From a virus: a stretch of 42,004 nucleotides of DNA. The notes below the pieces were generated by a model. That model had not been told where the DNA came from and did no database searches. It saw only the letters and a program-made list of their open reading frames with translations. The DNA lies in IMG/VR virus record IMGVR_UViG_3300043548_000832, positions 1 through 42,004 of that record; one strand, 5' to 3'. Shown piece by piece: positions 3,080-26,141 of the stretch; position 1 is the first letter of the stretch, and each line of letters starts with the position of its first letter. The position numbers and the translations under genes were made by a program.

Positions 3080-3090
3080 AACAAACAAAT

Positions 3091-3294
3091 ATGCAAACAT
3101 TGATTTTTAACACAACAACCAAAACCGCTGAGGTAACTTTTGAGGGCGGAAACACTAAGACTTATGAAGACGTTCCAACCGTTGCGGTTATGGAAGGATT
3201 TTATGAGGTACGTCAAACAGACATGATGGAAGATAAAAGATATCCAGTTCTCAGGCTTCCAATCGCAAATACCGTTATGGAAATTAAACGATAG
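3091..3294 (+). CDS. Small hypothetical protein
   Basis: 67 residues, starting MQTLIFNTTTKTAEVTFEGG, mostly beta-strand in character. One base separates it from the next gene. Not recognised. Confidence 0.75.
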   Translation: MQTLIFNTTTKTAEVTFEGGNTKTYEDVPTVAVMEGFYEVRQTDMMEDKRYPVLRLPIANTVMEIKR

Positions 3295-3649: not shown

Positions 3650-3857
3650 TCCGAATAATTACGGTGAACAATTTTTCACTGTGGCAGAATCCGAAGAACA
3701 GGCCATAGATAACTTAAACAAATATTTGGAAAAAACAGACTACCCAAAGAAGGATTGGTTCACCAAAGAATCTCTTACTTGGACTGATGATTACTTCAAA
3801 AAATATACTATAGACTCATTTGAACCTGGTGAGGTTCTTAATTCAGAAATTGCGTAA
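3630..3857 (+). CDS. Small hypothetical protein
   Basis: 75 residues, MKLYYFNPNNYGEQFFTVAE at the start, acidic and rich in aromatic residues. It overlaps both neighbours (20 bases upstream; TAATG junction with the RNA ligase downstream), so it is probably translated as part of the same mRNA. Not recognised. Confidence 0.7.
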   Translation: MKLYYFNPNNYGEQFFTVAESEEQAIDNLNKYLEKTDYPKKDWFTKESLTWTDDYFKKYTIDSFEPGEVLNSEIA

Positions 3858-4981
3858 TGAAACTAAATCTTGAAATATTAAACCAATATGTCGCAGAGGG
3901 TTGGGTGGTCAAAAATGACCACCCATCTTTACCTATATCCATATACAATTACTCTCGTAAGACACAATACGAAGGTAAGTGGGATGATATTACATTAAAA
4001 ACTCGCGGGTTGGTATTAGACAATGAAGGAACTGTTATTGCAAAATCCTTCGATAAGTTTTTTAACTACGAAGAGTTAGTTGGTAAAAATGAGTCTCAAT
4101 TTAAAATACCGAATGAACCTTTTGAGGTCTTCGAAAAAATGGATGGTTCTTTAGGTATATTATTCAACTATAATGATGAATGGATATTGGCAACCAAAGG
4201 TTCTTTTTCATCTGACCAAGCAATAAAGGGAATGCAAATTCTCAAAAAATATAGATATGATAGATTATTGAAGGGGTTCACATATCTTTTTGAAATTATA
4301 TATCCTGAAAATAGAATTGTCTGCGAATATGATTATGAAGATTTAATACTACTTGCAGTAATCGACAATAAAGACGGTTATGAACTCAGAATTCATGATA
4401 ATAACATCCACTTAGAGGGTATAAGATTTAAAAATCTATATGAAAATCTCGGGTTCAAAATTGTCAAAAAATATGATGGAATTCGGGATTATTCCGAACT
4501 GAAGTCCAAAATTTCACAAAATCAAGAAGGATTTGTTATCAAATTCCAAAGCGGGTTCAGAATGAAAGTTAAGGGAGAAGAGTATGTTAGACTACATAAA
4601 ATATTGACTCAATTAACAACTTATGATATTTGGGAACATTTAAAGGATGGTAAAGACGTTCTTGAGTTGGTGGATATCGTACCTGATGAATTCGATAAGT
4701 GGGTTAAATCTCAAGTAAGTGCATTAAGGTATGGCCATTTTTCTGTATCTGAATATTGTGGTAAAACACATGATTATTTCAGATATGGAAAATATAATGA
4801 TGTCGACCCGGAACCAACAAAAAAAGAATTTGCAGAACATCTGAAAAAGTATGTTGACCCAAAGCTACATGGTATCATGTTTGCTATCTGGGACGGAAAA
4901 AGAAATAAAGCAGACGAGTTGATTTGGAAACTTAATAAACCTATATTTTCCAAACCATTTTGGCAAAAAGAAGAAATATGA
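3857..4981 (+). CDS. T4 Rnl1-type RNA ligase
   Basis: 374 residues, the size of T4 RNA ligase 1. Nucleotidyltransferase motifs are in order: RGLVLDNEG near 50, motif I KMDGS with nucleophilic Lys94, motif III YLFEIIYPENRIV near 143-155, motif IV EGFVIKF near 224-230, and motif V RMKVKGEEYV near 235-244. The family seals 5'-phosphate and 3'-OH RNA ends via covalent AMP-lysine and repairs tRNAs cut by host anticodon nucleases. A kinase-like gene lies upstream and a cyclic-phosphate receiver-like gene at 22355. The start shares its A with the upstream TAA. Confidence 0.93.
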   Translation: MKLNLEILNQYVAEGWVVKNDHPSLPISIYNYSRKTQYEGKWDDITLKTRGLVLDNEGTVIAKSFDKFFNYEELVGKNESQFKIPNEPFEVFEKMDGSLGILFNYNDEWILATKGSFSSDQAIKGMQILKKYRYDRLLKGFTYLFEIIYPENRIVCEYDYEDLILLAVIDNKDGYELRIHDNNIHLEGIRFKNLYENLGFKIVKKYDGIRDYSELKSKISQNQEGFVIKFQSGFRMKVKGEEYVRLHKILTQLTTYDIWEHLKDGKDVLELVDIVPDEFDKWVKSQVSALRYGHFSVSEYCGKTHDYFRYGKYNDVDPEPTKKEFAEHLKKYVDPKLHGIMFAIWDGKRNKADELIWKLNKPIFSKPFWQKEEI

Positions 4982-15747: not shown

Positions 15748-15957
15748 ATGAAAATACAAACAGTTTTAGCCATCTTAATAACATTAGTTAGGATTTACCT
15801 AAGTATAAAGATAATTTCTTGGTTAATATTAAATTTAATTTCTGAAGTTCCACATCCAATTGAAGAAATACAATATCATCTAATTGTTGTATTATTGGAT
15901 ACTTGGTTATCTAGTCAACTAAATAACATCGTTATTAACGAAGTGAAGGAAGACTAA
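15748..15957 (+). CDS. Small membrane protein
   Basis: 69 residues, mostly hydrophobic at 5-32 (TVLAILITLVRIYLSIKIIS), then a polar middle and LIVVLLDTWL. Converges with the polyphosphate kinase gene (four-base overlap). Not recognised. Confidence 0.65.
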   Translation: MKIQTVLAILITLVRIYLSIKIISWLILNLISEVPHPIEEIQYHLIVVLLDTWLSSQLNNIVINEVKED

Positions 15958-17039
15958 GGTTTAAGAACCGTTAGGACCTCTGGATATTCGACATCCAAAA
16001 CTTTTTTATCTTTTCCTTGATAAGGTATATTCTGCAAGATATATCGAATTGCATTCAATCCAGAAATTCTTTTATCTTGGGAATCAATTATTACCCATGG
16101 GTGGTTCACAGTAGATGTTTTATCAAATAATTTTTCTTTGAACTCTGTAAATCTGTCCCATAAATCCTGCATTCTAGCATCATTGGGTGAATATTTCCAA
16201 TATTTCAAAGGTGATTGTTTTCTCATTTCAAATCTTCTAGCTTGAGTTGGTTTTTCTATCGAAAACCAAAGTTTAAATAAGTAATCACCCTCTTTAACCA
16301 AGTCCTGTTCGAAATCTGCAACATTTTCCATGAAGTCTTCATATTCTTCAGGACTGCCGTATCCCATAACAGGTTCAACTAAACCTCTATTATACCAACT
16401 TCTATCGAATAAATTAATCATTCCTGGTCGGATTTGTTTTTTATACCTGTTCCACCAATCTTTTCTTTCTTCAGGAGTAGGTATGCCTAAAGCAACAACA
16501 TTGTAATATCTTGGATTTAAATTTTCCACAAACTTTTTAATTGTTGAACCCTTACCTGCAGAATCTCTTCCCTCGAAAACAACAATTACAGTTTTACCCG
16601 TTTCCTTTAACCATTCTTGAAGTTTTAATAACTCAACTTGTAGTTGATATAGTTCTTTACGATAAATCTTTTTTGGTATTAATGATGGTTCTTCTGGTTC
16701 AAACTCATAGTCCTCACTTTCAGGCTCTACACCATACCCACCTCTTTCTCTGAATTTTAAAGATGATATAATTTTGCCAAAATAATCAGAAACATTCTTT
16801 TTTTTATCTCCTTTCTTCAACAAAATTTTTCTGAGACCTCTTTCAACCAAATCAAAATCGATAATTTGGTCTTTAGCAATAGAGGACAATTCTATTAACA
16901 TTTTTTCAATAGTAGGAGTATATAACTTCAAAAATTCTAAAGCCTGTATAACCTTTCCTAAATTTTTATCTAGTTTTTGGGAACTTTCGGTGATGCCCAT
17001 TACTCTTTTAATTCTATCGGCTTCTGATAATATGCCCAT
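15954..17039 (-). CDS. ppk2: Polyphosphate kinase 2 (PPK2) with N-terminal tag
   Basis: 361 residues. The PPK2 core spans about 120-361: Walker A in FEGRDSAGKGSTIKKF at 155-170, the lid/Walker B region FDRSWYNRGLVEPVMG at 211-226, and LFKLWFSIEKPTQARRFEMR with SPLKYWKYSPND. PPK2 moves phosphate between polyphosphate and nucleotides (NDP or NMP), so it could supply NTPs in infection. Before the core is a roughly 120-residue extension starting MGILSEADRIKRVMGITESS, with LSE and ITE elements, read here as a capsid-type tag. A TATTTATA box precedes the start by 12 bases. The direction and base preference cannot be read. Confidence 0.93.
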   Translation of the reverse strand: MGILSEADRIKRVMGITESSQKLDKNLGKVIQALEFLKLYTPTIEKMLIELSSIAKDQIIDFDLVERGLRKILLKKGDKKKNVSDYFGKIISSLKFRERGGYGVEPESEDYEFEPEEPSLIPKKIYRKELYQLQVELLKLQEWLKETGKTVIVVFEGRDSAGKGSTIKKFVENLNPRYYNVVALGIPTPEERKDWWNRYKKQIRPGMINLFDRSWYNRGLVEPVMGYGSPEEYEDFMENVADFEQDLVKEGDYLFKLWFSIEKPTQARRFEMRKQSPLKYWKYSPNDARMQDLWDRFTEFKEKLFDKTSTVNHPWVIIDSQDKRISGLNAIRYILQNIPYQGKDKKVLDVEYPEVLTVLKP

Positions 17040-24052: not shown

Positions 24053-25213
24053 TTATTCATTGTCGCAAACTAAACCAAGAAAATCTTCATCAAAAGATTT
24101 TGGTAAGCCCTTACCTGTATCATAAACCCAATATCCGCAATTCCTTTTTTTCTCGGCAGGATACACTAATATCCCCCCGATATCGTAAGATAATAACTTG
24201 GAATACGCTGATTGTGAACTTTTAATTTGTATAGGTACCCATTCATCCTTAAACTTTACCATCAAATCACACTGAAATGTAATATCTACTAAATTACCAT
24301 ATGATGAAAAATTCTTAATGTTTTCTTTAGGAATTCCGTTCGATATCAAATCACTCATAAATTGTCTTTCAGCGTTTTCTCCCTTTTCAGTTGTTTTTTT
24401 AATTCTTTCCACCATTCTTTTGTAATCATAATCAGACTCAGAGTTGTCTGCAAGGATTAATAAAGAAATAATATCAAAATCCGCTAAACTTAATTTTGGA
24501 ACCCCCGATTTAATCATATCTCTGTCCCTTGAATCATACTCAGATAAATCCACAACAGTCTCTATCGGTTTTTCTGTAAAATAATCATTTACTTTATCGG
24601 TCACCGTTCTTCCTACAAGTTTTCCTTCTACATCCTTTTTCGCAATCAATTTTATCCAATTAGTATAGTTGGTGTTAATTCTATTCAGAATTGACCAATC
24701 ATTTTTTTCCACAAATCCAAAAAAATCTCTTGCACCGAGTTGTCTTATTAATTTATTACATTCTTCTGTAATAGTTAAGGGGATTGCTCTATCAGGAAAA
24801 TCAAATTTCTTATTCGTGTCATTGATATTTTTTTTAAAAAATATGAGGTCTCTTACGTTTTCTAATATCCAATTCCTTTCAGGTTGACCAACTTTCACTT
24901 TTTCATTGTTTTGAAGCATTATTCTCTTCTTACTCCTAATGAGTTGATTGTAAGTTTTAGTACCCAAATTTTTAATTAAATCATGAATTTTTTGGTTATT
25001 TCTGAGGGAGTCCAAAATTGAAGTTGCATAATACTCTTTTTTGAATTGAGATATTGCTTTATTGTATTCCGCCTTTGTAATTTTTCCAGTTACTCTTAAC
25101 TTGAGTCCGATATTTTGCAAAGTTACGTCAGGTCCCTGATAATTTCTCAACATCTCATAGGTATCATACTTTTCCTGTTGTTCTAGTAAAATTTTTCTTA
25201 TCAAATCTTTCAT
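24053..25213 (-). CDS. Tagged nuclease-fold-like protein, paralog of 22756
   Basis: 386 residues, starting MKDLIRKILLEQQEKYDTYE. Same plan as the gene at 22756: tag, long helical part, then KKTTEKGENAERQFMSDLIS and ITFQCDLMVKFKDEWVPIQI plus KSSQ, a D...QxK core like PD-(D/E)xK nucleases. The common EKG-x-x-x-E segment and the W-[IV]-P-[VI]-Q-I-K stretch link the two. TATTTATT lies five bases before ATG. Confidence 0.7.
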   Translation of the reverse strand: MKDLIRKILLEQQEKYDTYEMLRNYQGPDVTLQNIGLKLRVTGKITKAEYNKAISQFKKEYYATSILDSLRNNQKIHDLIKNLGTKTYNQLIRSKKRIMLQNNEKVKVGQPERNWILENVRDLIFFKKNINDTNKKFDFPDRAIPLTITEECNKLIRQLGARDFFGFVEKNDWSILNRINTNYTNWIKLIAKKDVEGKLVGRTVTDKVNDYFTEKPIETVVDLSEYDSRDRDMIKSGVPKLSLADFDIISLLILADNSESDYDYKRMVERIKKTTEKGENAERQFMSDLISNGIPKENIKNFSSYGNLVDITFQCDLMVKFKDEWVPIQIKSSQSAYSKLLSYDIGGILVYPAEKKRNCGYWVYDTGKGLPKSFDEDFLGLVCDNE

Positions 25214-25218
25214 TACTT

Positions 25219-25226
25219 AATAAATA
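25219..25226 (-). promoter_or_regulatory. TATTTAT box
   Basis: TATTTATT five bases before ATG 25213. Confidence 0.5.
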
Positions 25227-25231
25227 CTGAA

Positions 25232-25262
25232 TTAAAATAAAAAGGGGAGACCGTCGTCTCCC
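25232..25262 (-). terminator. Strong minus-strand terminator
   Basis: GGGAGAC-GACG-GTCTCCC on the minus strand (stem 25245-25251 with 25256-25262), then CTTTTTATTT. A perfect seven-pair stem ending the RNA region upstream of 25213. Confidence 0.85.
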
Positions 25263-25560
25263 AGAAGTCCCCGTCAGGACAAGATTCGAGTTGTTTGGAG
25301 GTGGGTCAATCTCTGAAACCCGTAAAGTAGGACGTACTTCTGTTTTTTTGTTTCAAGTCTGAAAAAACGTACCTGAGAAAAAAAGACTCGGTGAGTTGTG
25401 TCTTTTACAGTAGGACTGAGGTTACCACTCTCATAAACTGCCCGTGTTTTAATAACCTTTATTTCTAATTTATATAGCGGAGAAGAATAAAGGTAAGGTG
25501 AGTATGGGGAACCACCAATTAAGAACCATTCCGCTGTCCTGTTTCATTACAAAGATAAGT
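25245..25560 (-). ncRNA. Candidate structured RNA, promoter to terminator
   Basis: No convincing gene. Reading the minus strand from a TATCTTTG box (25550-25557) to the terminator there are long complementary segments. AGCGGA (25535-25530) pairs with TCCGCT (25481-25476), and ACCTTTATT (25494-25486) with AATAAAGGT (25463-25455). These interleave, giving an H-type pseudoknot layout. CAGAAGT (25342-25336) pairs with ACTTCTG (25268-25262) near the 3' end. It is not RNase P or tmRNA by any motif I can see. Confidence 0.6.
25550..25557 (-). promoter_or_regulatory. Bacteroidota-type -7 box in the RNA region
   Basis: TATCTTTG on the minus strand, preceded by TTTGTTTGT about 20 bases upstream as possible -33 element. 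Confidence 0.45.
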
Positions 25561-25664
25561 AAGTTTCGACAAACAAACAAATCTTTTAGAAAATTTTTTG
25601 TGGGACCTCCTGTCTACTTTTATAGGTCATTGCTTCAATACAGACGACACAAAAACACTTTTCG

Positions 25665-25758
25665 TGGTTGGGAGTGGAGTCGAACCACTGGCACACCGCT
25701 GTTCAGGCGGATGCTCTACCAATGTGAACTCAAGGAACACAACTGAGCTACCACAACC
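25665..25758 (-). tRNA. tRNA-Phe(GAA) with D-loop insertion
   Basis: 94 bases. Anticodon arm CCGC-CTGAACA-GCGG gives GAA; T-arm AGTGG-TTCGACT-CCACT; acceptor 3' strand CCCAACC with discriminator A. The 5' strand GGTTGTGG pairs only if one T is bulged. The D-arm AGCTCAGTTG ... GTAGAGC is normal except for about 20 extra bases (TGTTCCTTGAGTTCACATTG) inside the loop. Position 37 is C, unusual. May be an altered, decoy or defective tRNA. CCA is not encoded. Confidence 0.82.
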
Positions 25759-25775
25759 ATATTTAAAGAACTTAA

Positions 25776-25834
25776 AAATAACAACTTTACTCTATAGCTA
25801 CCGATATTGAGATTTGATTTCGGAGTTGTTATTT
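25776..25834 (-). ncRNA. Long hairpin upstream of tRNA-Phe
   Basis: AAATAACAACT at 25776-25786 and AGTTGTTATTT at 25824-25834 form an 11-pair perfect stem around a 37-base loop. It would be the leader of the tRNA-Phe transcript. Confidence 0.5.
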
Positions 25835-25840
25835 CTTTTA

Positions 25841-25848
25841 CAAAGATA
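25841..25848 (-). promoter_or_regulatory. Bacteroidota-type -7 box before tRNA-Phe
   Basis: TATCTTTG on the minus strand just before the hairpin; likely promoter of the tRNA transcript. Confidence 0.5.
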
Positions 25849-25886
25849 AAAAGTAGTTTTTAAACTATCAAATTTTTTTTAAAAAA

Positions 25887-26038
25887 TTAGTTGGGTTCGG
25901 TCGGAAAACCATCCATTTGTTTTTCTTGGTGGGACATCCAATAGTTTTTCACCGTCTTTACTGACATATTCCCAATACGTAGATAGGGAGGGATGAGACC
26001 CTGTTATAATATTAGATTAACCTCCTACACCCAACTAA
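25887..26038 (-). ncRNA. Candidate RNA closed by a 10-pair terminal stem
   Basis: TTAGTTGGGT at 26038-26029 and ACCCAACTAA at 25896-25887 (minus strand) close about 130 bases; a run of T follows directly, so the element could end in a terminator. Inside, GTAGGAGG can pair with CCTCCCTAT with one bulge, and GGTG with CACC. No open frame of note. Confidence 0.5.
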
Positions 26039-26059
26039 ATAATTTTATCAAAGAACGAA

Positions 26060-26141
26060 ATTTGAATACCGAGTATCTTTCATTGCCTATGAGTTTCAAA
26101 TCCTTTACGAAGGTATGAGGTATTTTTTAACCAATCAAATT
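26060..26141. other. Gene-free stretch with complementary arms
   Basis: Between the RNA element and the gene at 26142. AATACC (near 26069) pairs with GGTATT (near 26120), enclosing CCTTTACGAAGG. Direction unknown; part of the roughly 930-base gene-free region. Confidence 0.35.

Follow-up and report, generated by a model that had tools for sequence, protein, structure and literature searches.

Does the gap of about 930 bases between positions 25214 and 26141 of this viral DNA encode one large ornate RNA of the GOLLD or ROOL type, as had been suggested from the letters alone (hereafter the sequence-only reading)? GOLLD and ROOL are phage RNAs which lie near tRNA islands and form RNA-only cages, and their function is unknown (PMC12286853). 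The window, meaning the whole stretch of DNA that was analysed, comprises 42,004 nucleotides of the IMG/VR virus record IMGVR_UViG_3300043548_000832; the RNA elements and promoters described below lie on its minus strand. The region proved to be a real and mostly conserved non-coding RNA operon, which contains not one RNA of about 930 nt but a leader, a separate tRNA and an RNA of about 300 nt.

Layout of the minus-strand operon

The absence of genes from the region was confirmed, as no minus-strand ORF of at least 50 aa was found between 25214 and 26141, and the opposite strand carries only two antisense ORFs with GTG or TTG starts. From 5' to 3' the minus strand presents a promoter box with the leader hairpin, a boxA-like sequence, a segment confined to the window, a promoter, the tRNA, another promoter, the ~300-nt RNA and its terminator. 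A gene for a 386-aa protein begins at 25213, 3' of the terminator. For a small ORF-like stretch at 25882-26001 a homolog was not found.

The strong stems emphasised by the sequence-only reading did not stand out when folded. Single-sequence folding revealed no structure in excess of chance for either the 928 nt (z = -0.76) or the ~300-nt RNA alone (z = -0.52), and the case for the RNA thus rests on comparison. The 10-pair stem TTAGTTGGGT/ACCCAACTAA (26029-26038/25887-25896), which bounds the window-only segment (25887-26038), and the 11-pair stem (25776-25786/25824-25834) can be drawn in the window and are restricted to it; in this stretch only a promoter copy matches relatives, and the segment has no counterpart there apart from that copy, which lies further downstream.

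The host-type boxes (TAnnTTTG) and the terminator (25239-25262) are present as proposed, and the promoters of the operon are of the Bacteroidetes type. That of the leader has a -7-like box TACCTTCG at 26108-26115, assigned from its letters, which deviates from TAnnTTTG. The second, recognised as a repeated promoter sequence, has the -7 box TATCTTTG at 25841-25848, and the same box at 25550-25557 belongs to the third, that of the ~300-nt RNA. Two near-identical promoter segments (25831-25888 and 25539-25595) are repeated inside the operon, and they recur across phages. A -7 box precedes the aligned start of the RNA by 9-17 nt in 18 of 23 loci and is absent in the L048 clade.

Regarding the wider setting, ribosomal protein bS21 is encoded by all records above 165 kb in the set searched, together with some smaller ones, and we liken these to lake phages with bS21, which have been predicted to infect Bacteroidetes (PMC9723584). 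Elsewhere in the window, genes for a T4 Rnl1-type RNA ligase (PF09511) and a polyphosphate kinase 2 occupy 3857-4981 and 15954-17039. The motif TATTTAT lies at most 45 nt upstream of 15 of the 37 minus-strand ATG ORFs of at least 90 aa in the window, against a background of 2.2%, and is a candidate phage-specific promoter or start-site motif. One copy separates the terminator from the 386-aa gene, which may therefore have its own promoter.

A conserved RNA of about 300 nt

Homologs were collected from relatives of the 386-aa gene, followed by pattern scans of viral contigs. This set holds 23 distinct full-length RNAs from phage loci, measuring 295-311 nt from start to terminator, on contigs of 18 to 326 kb. 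The contigs with relatives of this gene retain both tRNA and RNA, although the gene itself sits elsewhere in them. In the window the RNA covers 25239-25542 and has a host-type promoter and a terminator to itself; it is predicted to start at AATGGACAGCGG and to end at the GACG terminator.

Rfam scans at gathering and at permissive thresholds returned only the sub-threshold tRNA and chance matches. A blastn search of INPHARED (phage GenBank) matched only tRNA or promoter and no member of the RNA, and a later pattern scan gave already-known members and chance matches. R1, a covariance model of the RNA, recovered 6/6 known positives, with no hits in 395 Bacteroidota genomes under strict filters or in 49 leader/GOLLD records. 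No description of the RNA was found in the literature searched. Candidate loci L303 and L343 were rejected as members, since they look coding. On one contig of 110,935 bases (L231 11800-13255, and L045) an HNH-like ORF lies between leader and tRNA, and three tandem copies of the RNA follow each other at intervals of ~311 nt, of which two are degenerate and weak and have promoters of their own.

Comparison of these homologs shows a conserved structured RNA with interleaved helices, that is, pseudoknots. Helix S1 (25530-25535/25476-25481, AGCGGA/TCCGCT) encloses the hairpin P2 (25513-25516/25497-25500) within 25476-25535, and is interleaved with helix S2 (25486-25494/25455-25463, ACCTTTATT/AATAAAGGT) within 25455-25494. 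The interleaved layout had been picked out from the single sequence, and both helices covary in relatives: S1 reads, for example, AGCGGA/TCCGCT or AGAGAG/CTCTCT, P2 is invariant, and S2 takes the form of 19 different helices in 23 sequences (GACCT/AGGTC and many variants), being weak in the L048 clade. Further along, hairpin P7 (25324-25340) has a stem that is 94.6% paired and shows two-sided changes at 4/4 pairs, and its loop GTCCT (25329-25333) pairs with AGGAC at the 5' end of the RNA (25536-25540). This long-range pairing is 96.5% paired, and RNAalifold recovers it unaided, along with P2, P10 and P11. The latter two close the RNA at 25239-25280 with GACG loops, as hairpin P10 (25267-25280, 98.3% paired) and the terminator hairpin P11 with its T-run (25239-25262, 99.5% paired), both with compensatory changes. 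In the hand-read model, which also has P6, an upstream AGG or CAG is a possible partner for the loop of hairpin P4, and P8 is possibly interleaved with P9. In the window, the 5' sequence CAGGACA could alternatively pair with TGTCCTG inside P10, a complement missing in most relatives.

The sequence-only reading had staked itself on covarying pairs in related phages, and compensatory changes were indeed found. Swapping 3' strands among sequences lowered pairing in 5000/5000 trials (swap test 0/5000) for S1, S2, the 5' end with the P7 loop, P4, P7, P9, P10 and P11; the result was weaker for the pseudoknot PKb (8/5000) and for P6 (5/5000) and uninformative for P2 and P8; these counts are not probabilities, because the 23 sequences are related. 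In a MAFFT alignment, 85.6% of cells were paired, versus 74.5% after shuffling and 41-50% with partners slid, and double changes affected 36 of 57 pairs (covariation score 0.376 versus 0.187), for a fold model partly read from the same sequences. The clearest single compensatory event is GGAC/GTCC to GGAT/ATCC in the L048 clade. Pairing of Shine-Dalgarno (SD) and anti-SD type through GGGAGG was considered and rejected, as this motif changes to GGGCAG in step with its PKb partner. The SD-like GGAGG is likewise lost in the window clade and in L024 along with that partner, and is thus explained by base pairing.

The neighbouring tRNA and the shared leader

The tRNA-Phe of the sequence-only reading exists in non-standard form, as a phenylalanine-type element with anticodon GAA at 25665-25758, preceded by a second boxA-like sequence GTTCTTTAAATATGG (25757-25771). 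It carries an extra acceptor-stem base and, at 25723-25741, a D-loop hairpin insert TGTGTTCCTTGAGTTCACA, and these two features account for its score of 22.9 bits against the Rfam tRNA model (RF00005, cut-off 29) and for the lack of an ARAGORN call. All of its arms can be read and the T stem is perfect; the irregularities are one bulged acceptor base, the D-loop hairpin and an anticodon-stem mismatch. Its counterparts in relatives score from below the RF00005 cut-off up to 57 bits (L231).

A tRNA stands directly upstream of the ~300-nt RNA in 23/23 loci (in L045, as read from the overlapping locus L231). The extra acceptor base (GGTTGxGG/CCCAACC) recurs in 19 and the D-loop insert in 18 of 21 distinct tRNAs, and the anticodon loop reads GAA in all distinct tRNAs except L012. 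Each of the 17 distinct inserts folds into a hairpin, and the arms pair only with their own partners (swap test 0/5000). A normal D-loop in L009, L039 and L231 and a normal acceptor in L053 and L231 accompany the same ~300-nt RNA. The L048 clade has no promoter between tRNA and RNA: the RNA starts immediately after the tRNA CCA, so that its 5' end would be generated by processing of the tRNA 3' end. A related observation comes from the 642-kb phage LR756502.1 (L177), where a tRNA-Glu-like element (3090-3210), its D-loop enlarged by a long insertion, lies between a matching promoter and GOLLD; D-loop inserts may thus be wider among GOLLD-linked phage tRNAs.

The leader hairpin (26058-26102) is a covarying stem around the core AGGCAATGAAAGATACTCGG (26069-26088). 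Across loci, a freely varying stem encloses a nearly invariant core AGGYRATGAAAGATACTCGG. A scan with the core gave at least 120 matches, and the leader-site counts given here are among the matches listed. The stem takes 62 distinct forms among the 77 sites listed, and its own arms pair better than swapped ones (0/5000). A TAnnTTTG-like box occurs at most 45 nt upstream in 72 of 83 distinct leader sites listed, mostly 26-29 nt before the core, which places the hairpin at the very 5' end of the predicted transcript. Just 3' of the leader is the sequence GTTCTTTGATAAA (GTTCTTTGA, 26044-26056), whose likeness to boxA is putative; among sites listed, GTTCTT follows the core by 12-24 nt in about half of those with a match, and a GTTCTTTRA-like box lies near the hairpin in many.

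This leader lies upstream of the ~300-nt RNA in 22 of the 23 distinct loci, and a shortened form is found in the last. Among the matches listed, the same leader also occurs at 47 other loci, where the GOLLD 3' domain follows at a distance of 479-820 nt. Sorted by what follows the leader, the sites listed comprise 47 with GOLLD, 22 with the ~300-nt RNA and 13 with neither, numbers which depend on the way in which loci were gathered and should not be taken as frequencies. GOLLD scored above the Rfam cut-off in 36 of 49 leader records, and the core was found in 0/296 Bacteroidota genomes. Another conserved sequence type, beginning GGGTGTAAAGGTGAAAACCGGGGACCACTCA, follows the leader in L181, L183, L234, L236, L253, L258, L261 and L264; the sequences after the leader in L181 and L183 have no Rfam match at the gathering cut-off, and this type is possibly a third leader-driven RNA. 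A segment running from ACCTGAAGTGAGAG to CACCAAATGGTTTGAAATC after the leader in L172, L224 and L231 is common to phages with GOLLD and phages with the new RNA.

Possible roles and relation to GOLLD and ROOL

Covariance models of GOLLD (RF02032) and ROOL had been put forward as the check on membership, and gave no match, whether with the window (E <= 10) or with relatives (E <= 1); genuine GOLLD RNAs of other phages reach 155-325 bits against the Rfam model of the 3' domain. Among 44 records with or near the new RNA, five, which measure 181-321 kb, hold both GOLLD and the ~300-nt RNA, tens of kb apart, which marks them as distinct RNAs. In these contigs the leader was not found near GOLLD at the four GOLLD loci that were readable. 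The proposed link to GOLLD holds for the leader shared with GOLLD loci and for the five contigs with both RNAs; in sequence, covariance and size the RNA matches neither GOLLD nor ROOL. A highly diverged GOLLD that has lost its 5' half would fit the shared leader, the phage setting and the proximity to tRNAs possible for both RNAs; given the missing GOLLD score and the contigs with both, it is largely refuted and very improbable. We conclude that the ~300-nt RNA is an undescribed phage ornate RNA beside a tRNA, and a member of neither GOLLD nor ROOL.

The reading that we tentatively favour, at slightly less than even confidence, is that the ~300-nt RNA is a trans-acting structural RNA which operates in the manner of GOLLD and ROOL and serves the same process as GOLLD, while unrelated to them in sequence. 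Host RNA polymerase would start at the Bacteroidetes-type promoters, early or constitutively. The first transcript would begin with the leader hairpin, as a 5'-end protector and/or antitermination signal, then the boxA-like sequence, and the leader would stabilise this transcript or make transcription processive. The non-standard tRNA would be produced from the same transcript, accompanying the RNA as tRNAs do at GOLLD and ROOL loci, and the ~300-nt RNA would be released from its own promoter or, where that is missing, by tRNA 3'-end processing, and would end at its own terminator. Its compact body of interleaved helices would have the 5' end locked into its own P7 loop or that of another copy, and the RNA would act in trans, being stable, probably abundant and perhaps self-associating. 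Self-assembly is suggested by analogy with GOLLD and ROOL and by the exposed complementarity of 5' end and loop, which could pair within or between molecules. Against a GOLLD-like model we count the length of ~300 nt, much smaller than ROOL or GOLLD.

Other roles deserve consideration. The conserved terminator could make the RNA a cis-acting attenuator or leader of the next gene, since a gene starts 23-74 nt past it in 23/23 loci and its GACG loop is nearly invariant. The first downstream genes nevertheless fall into five unrelated groups (the upstream genes are partly conserved), which makes a cis role for one gene unlikely and argues for trans action; moreover, the long-range pairs connect the 5' end with a central part of the RNA and not with the terminator, and the window gene may use the TATTTAT motif. 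We regard attenuation as improbable. The host-type promoters, isolated transcription unit and stable fold would also suit a small RNA with a regulatory role during takeover, one that binds RNA polymerase, the ribosome or another such host machine in the manner of 6S RNA. The bS21 genes point in the same direction, as does the pull-down of GOLLD by ribosomes, as cited in PMC12286853. The RNA, however, has no match to 6S or any other Rfam family, and its SD-like motif is accounted for by PKb pairing, so that we consider such a role distinctly unlikely.

T4 uses an Rnl1-type RNA ligase in tRNA repair, and the window encodes a ligase of this type. The odd tRNA and the folded RNA could be decoys or nuclease-resistant substitutes which soak up or evade host defences that cut tRNAs, the D-loop hairpin and acceptor base blocking recognition. 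Insert sequences that vary while the hairpin is kept, and the prevalence of the extra base, agree with this, and tRNAs are known targets in immunity (PMC12851939 and PMC2610378). Counter-defence is still unlikely in our estimation, as tRNAs with a normal D-loop or acceptor stand beside the same RNA, which itself does not resemble a tRNA.

Extending the trans-acting structural reading, the RNA might found a new class of phage ornate RNAs, in complex with the D-loop-hairpin tRNA and possibly as a small cage or oligomer, within a wider phage programme whose single leader launches a number of large RNAs of unrelated kinds, among them GOLLD, this RNA and one or more additional types; we hold this to be possible, though doubtful. 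Since their discovery GOLLD and ROOL have lacked an assigned function, and an RNA with the leader and tRNA setting of GOLLD, small enough at ~300 nt for probing, mutation and structure work, offers a smaller way in. Through the shared leader, more members of this programme of phage RNAs can be sought by sequence, and its possible action in 5' protection or antitermination can be tested; a tRNA with an additional hairpin in its D-loop is already unusual on its own.

Among known systems, the leader resembles the rrn boxB-boxA antitermination leader in layout, with a 5' hairpin and then a GTTCTTTGA-like box preceding a predicted non-coding transcript, but differs in its phage-specific core. In the window tRNA, cloverleaf arms, a T-loop and a GAA anticodon loop can be read as in phage tRNA-Phe(GAA), and it departs from the latter in the extra acceptor base, the D-loop hairpin, its escape from ARAGORN and its tie to one RNA. 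The ~300-nt RNA shares with ROOL its phage or prophage origin, a position near tRNAs and the presence of several pseudoknots (PMC12286853); it has about half the length of ROOL, different helices and no Rfam match. GOLLD is often longer than 800 nt, with a conserved 3' and a variable 5' region, whereas the conserved unit of the new RNA measures 295-311 nt and lacks the conserved 416-position 3' domain as well as any sequence or covariance match; what the two have in common is that both are phage-encoded structured RNAs with the same leader in front, linked to tRNAs and in some cases carried on the same contigs.
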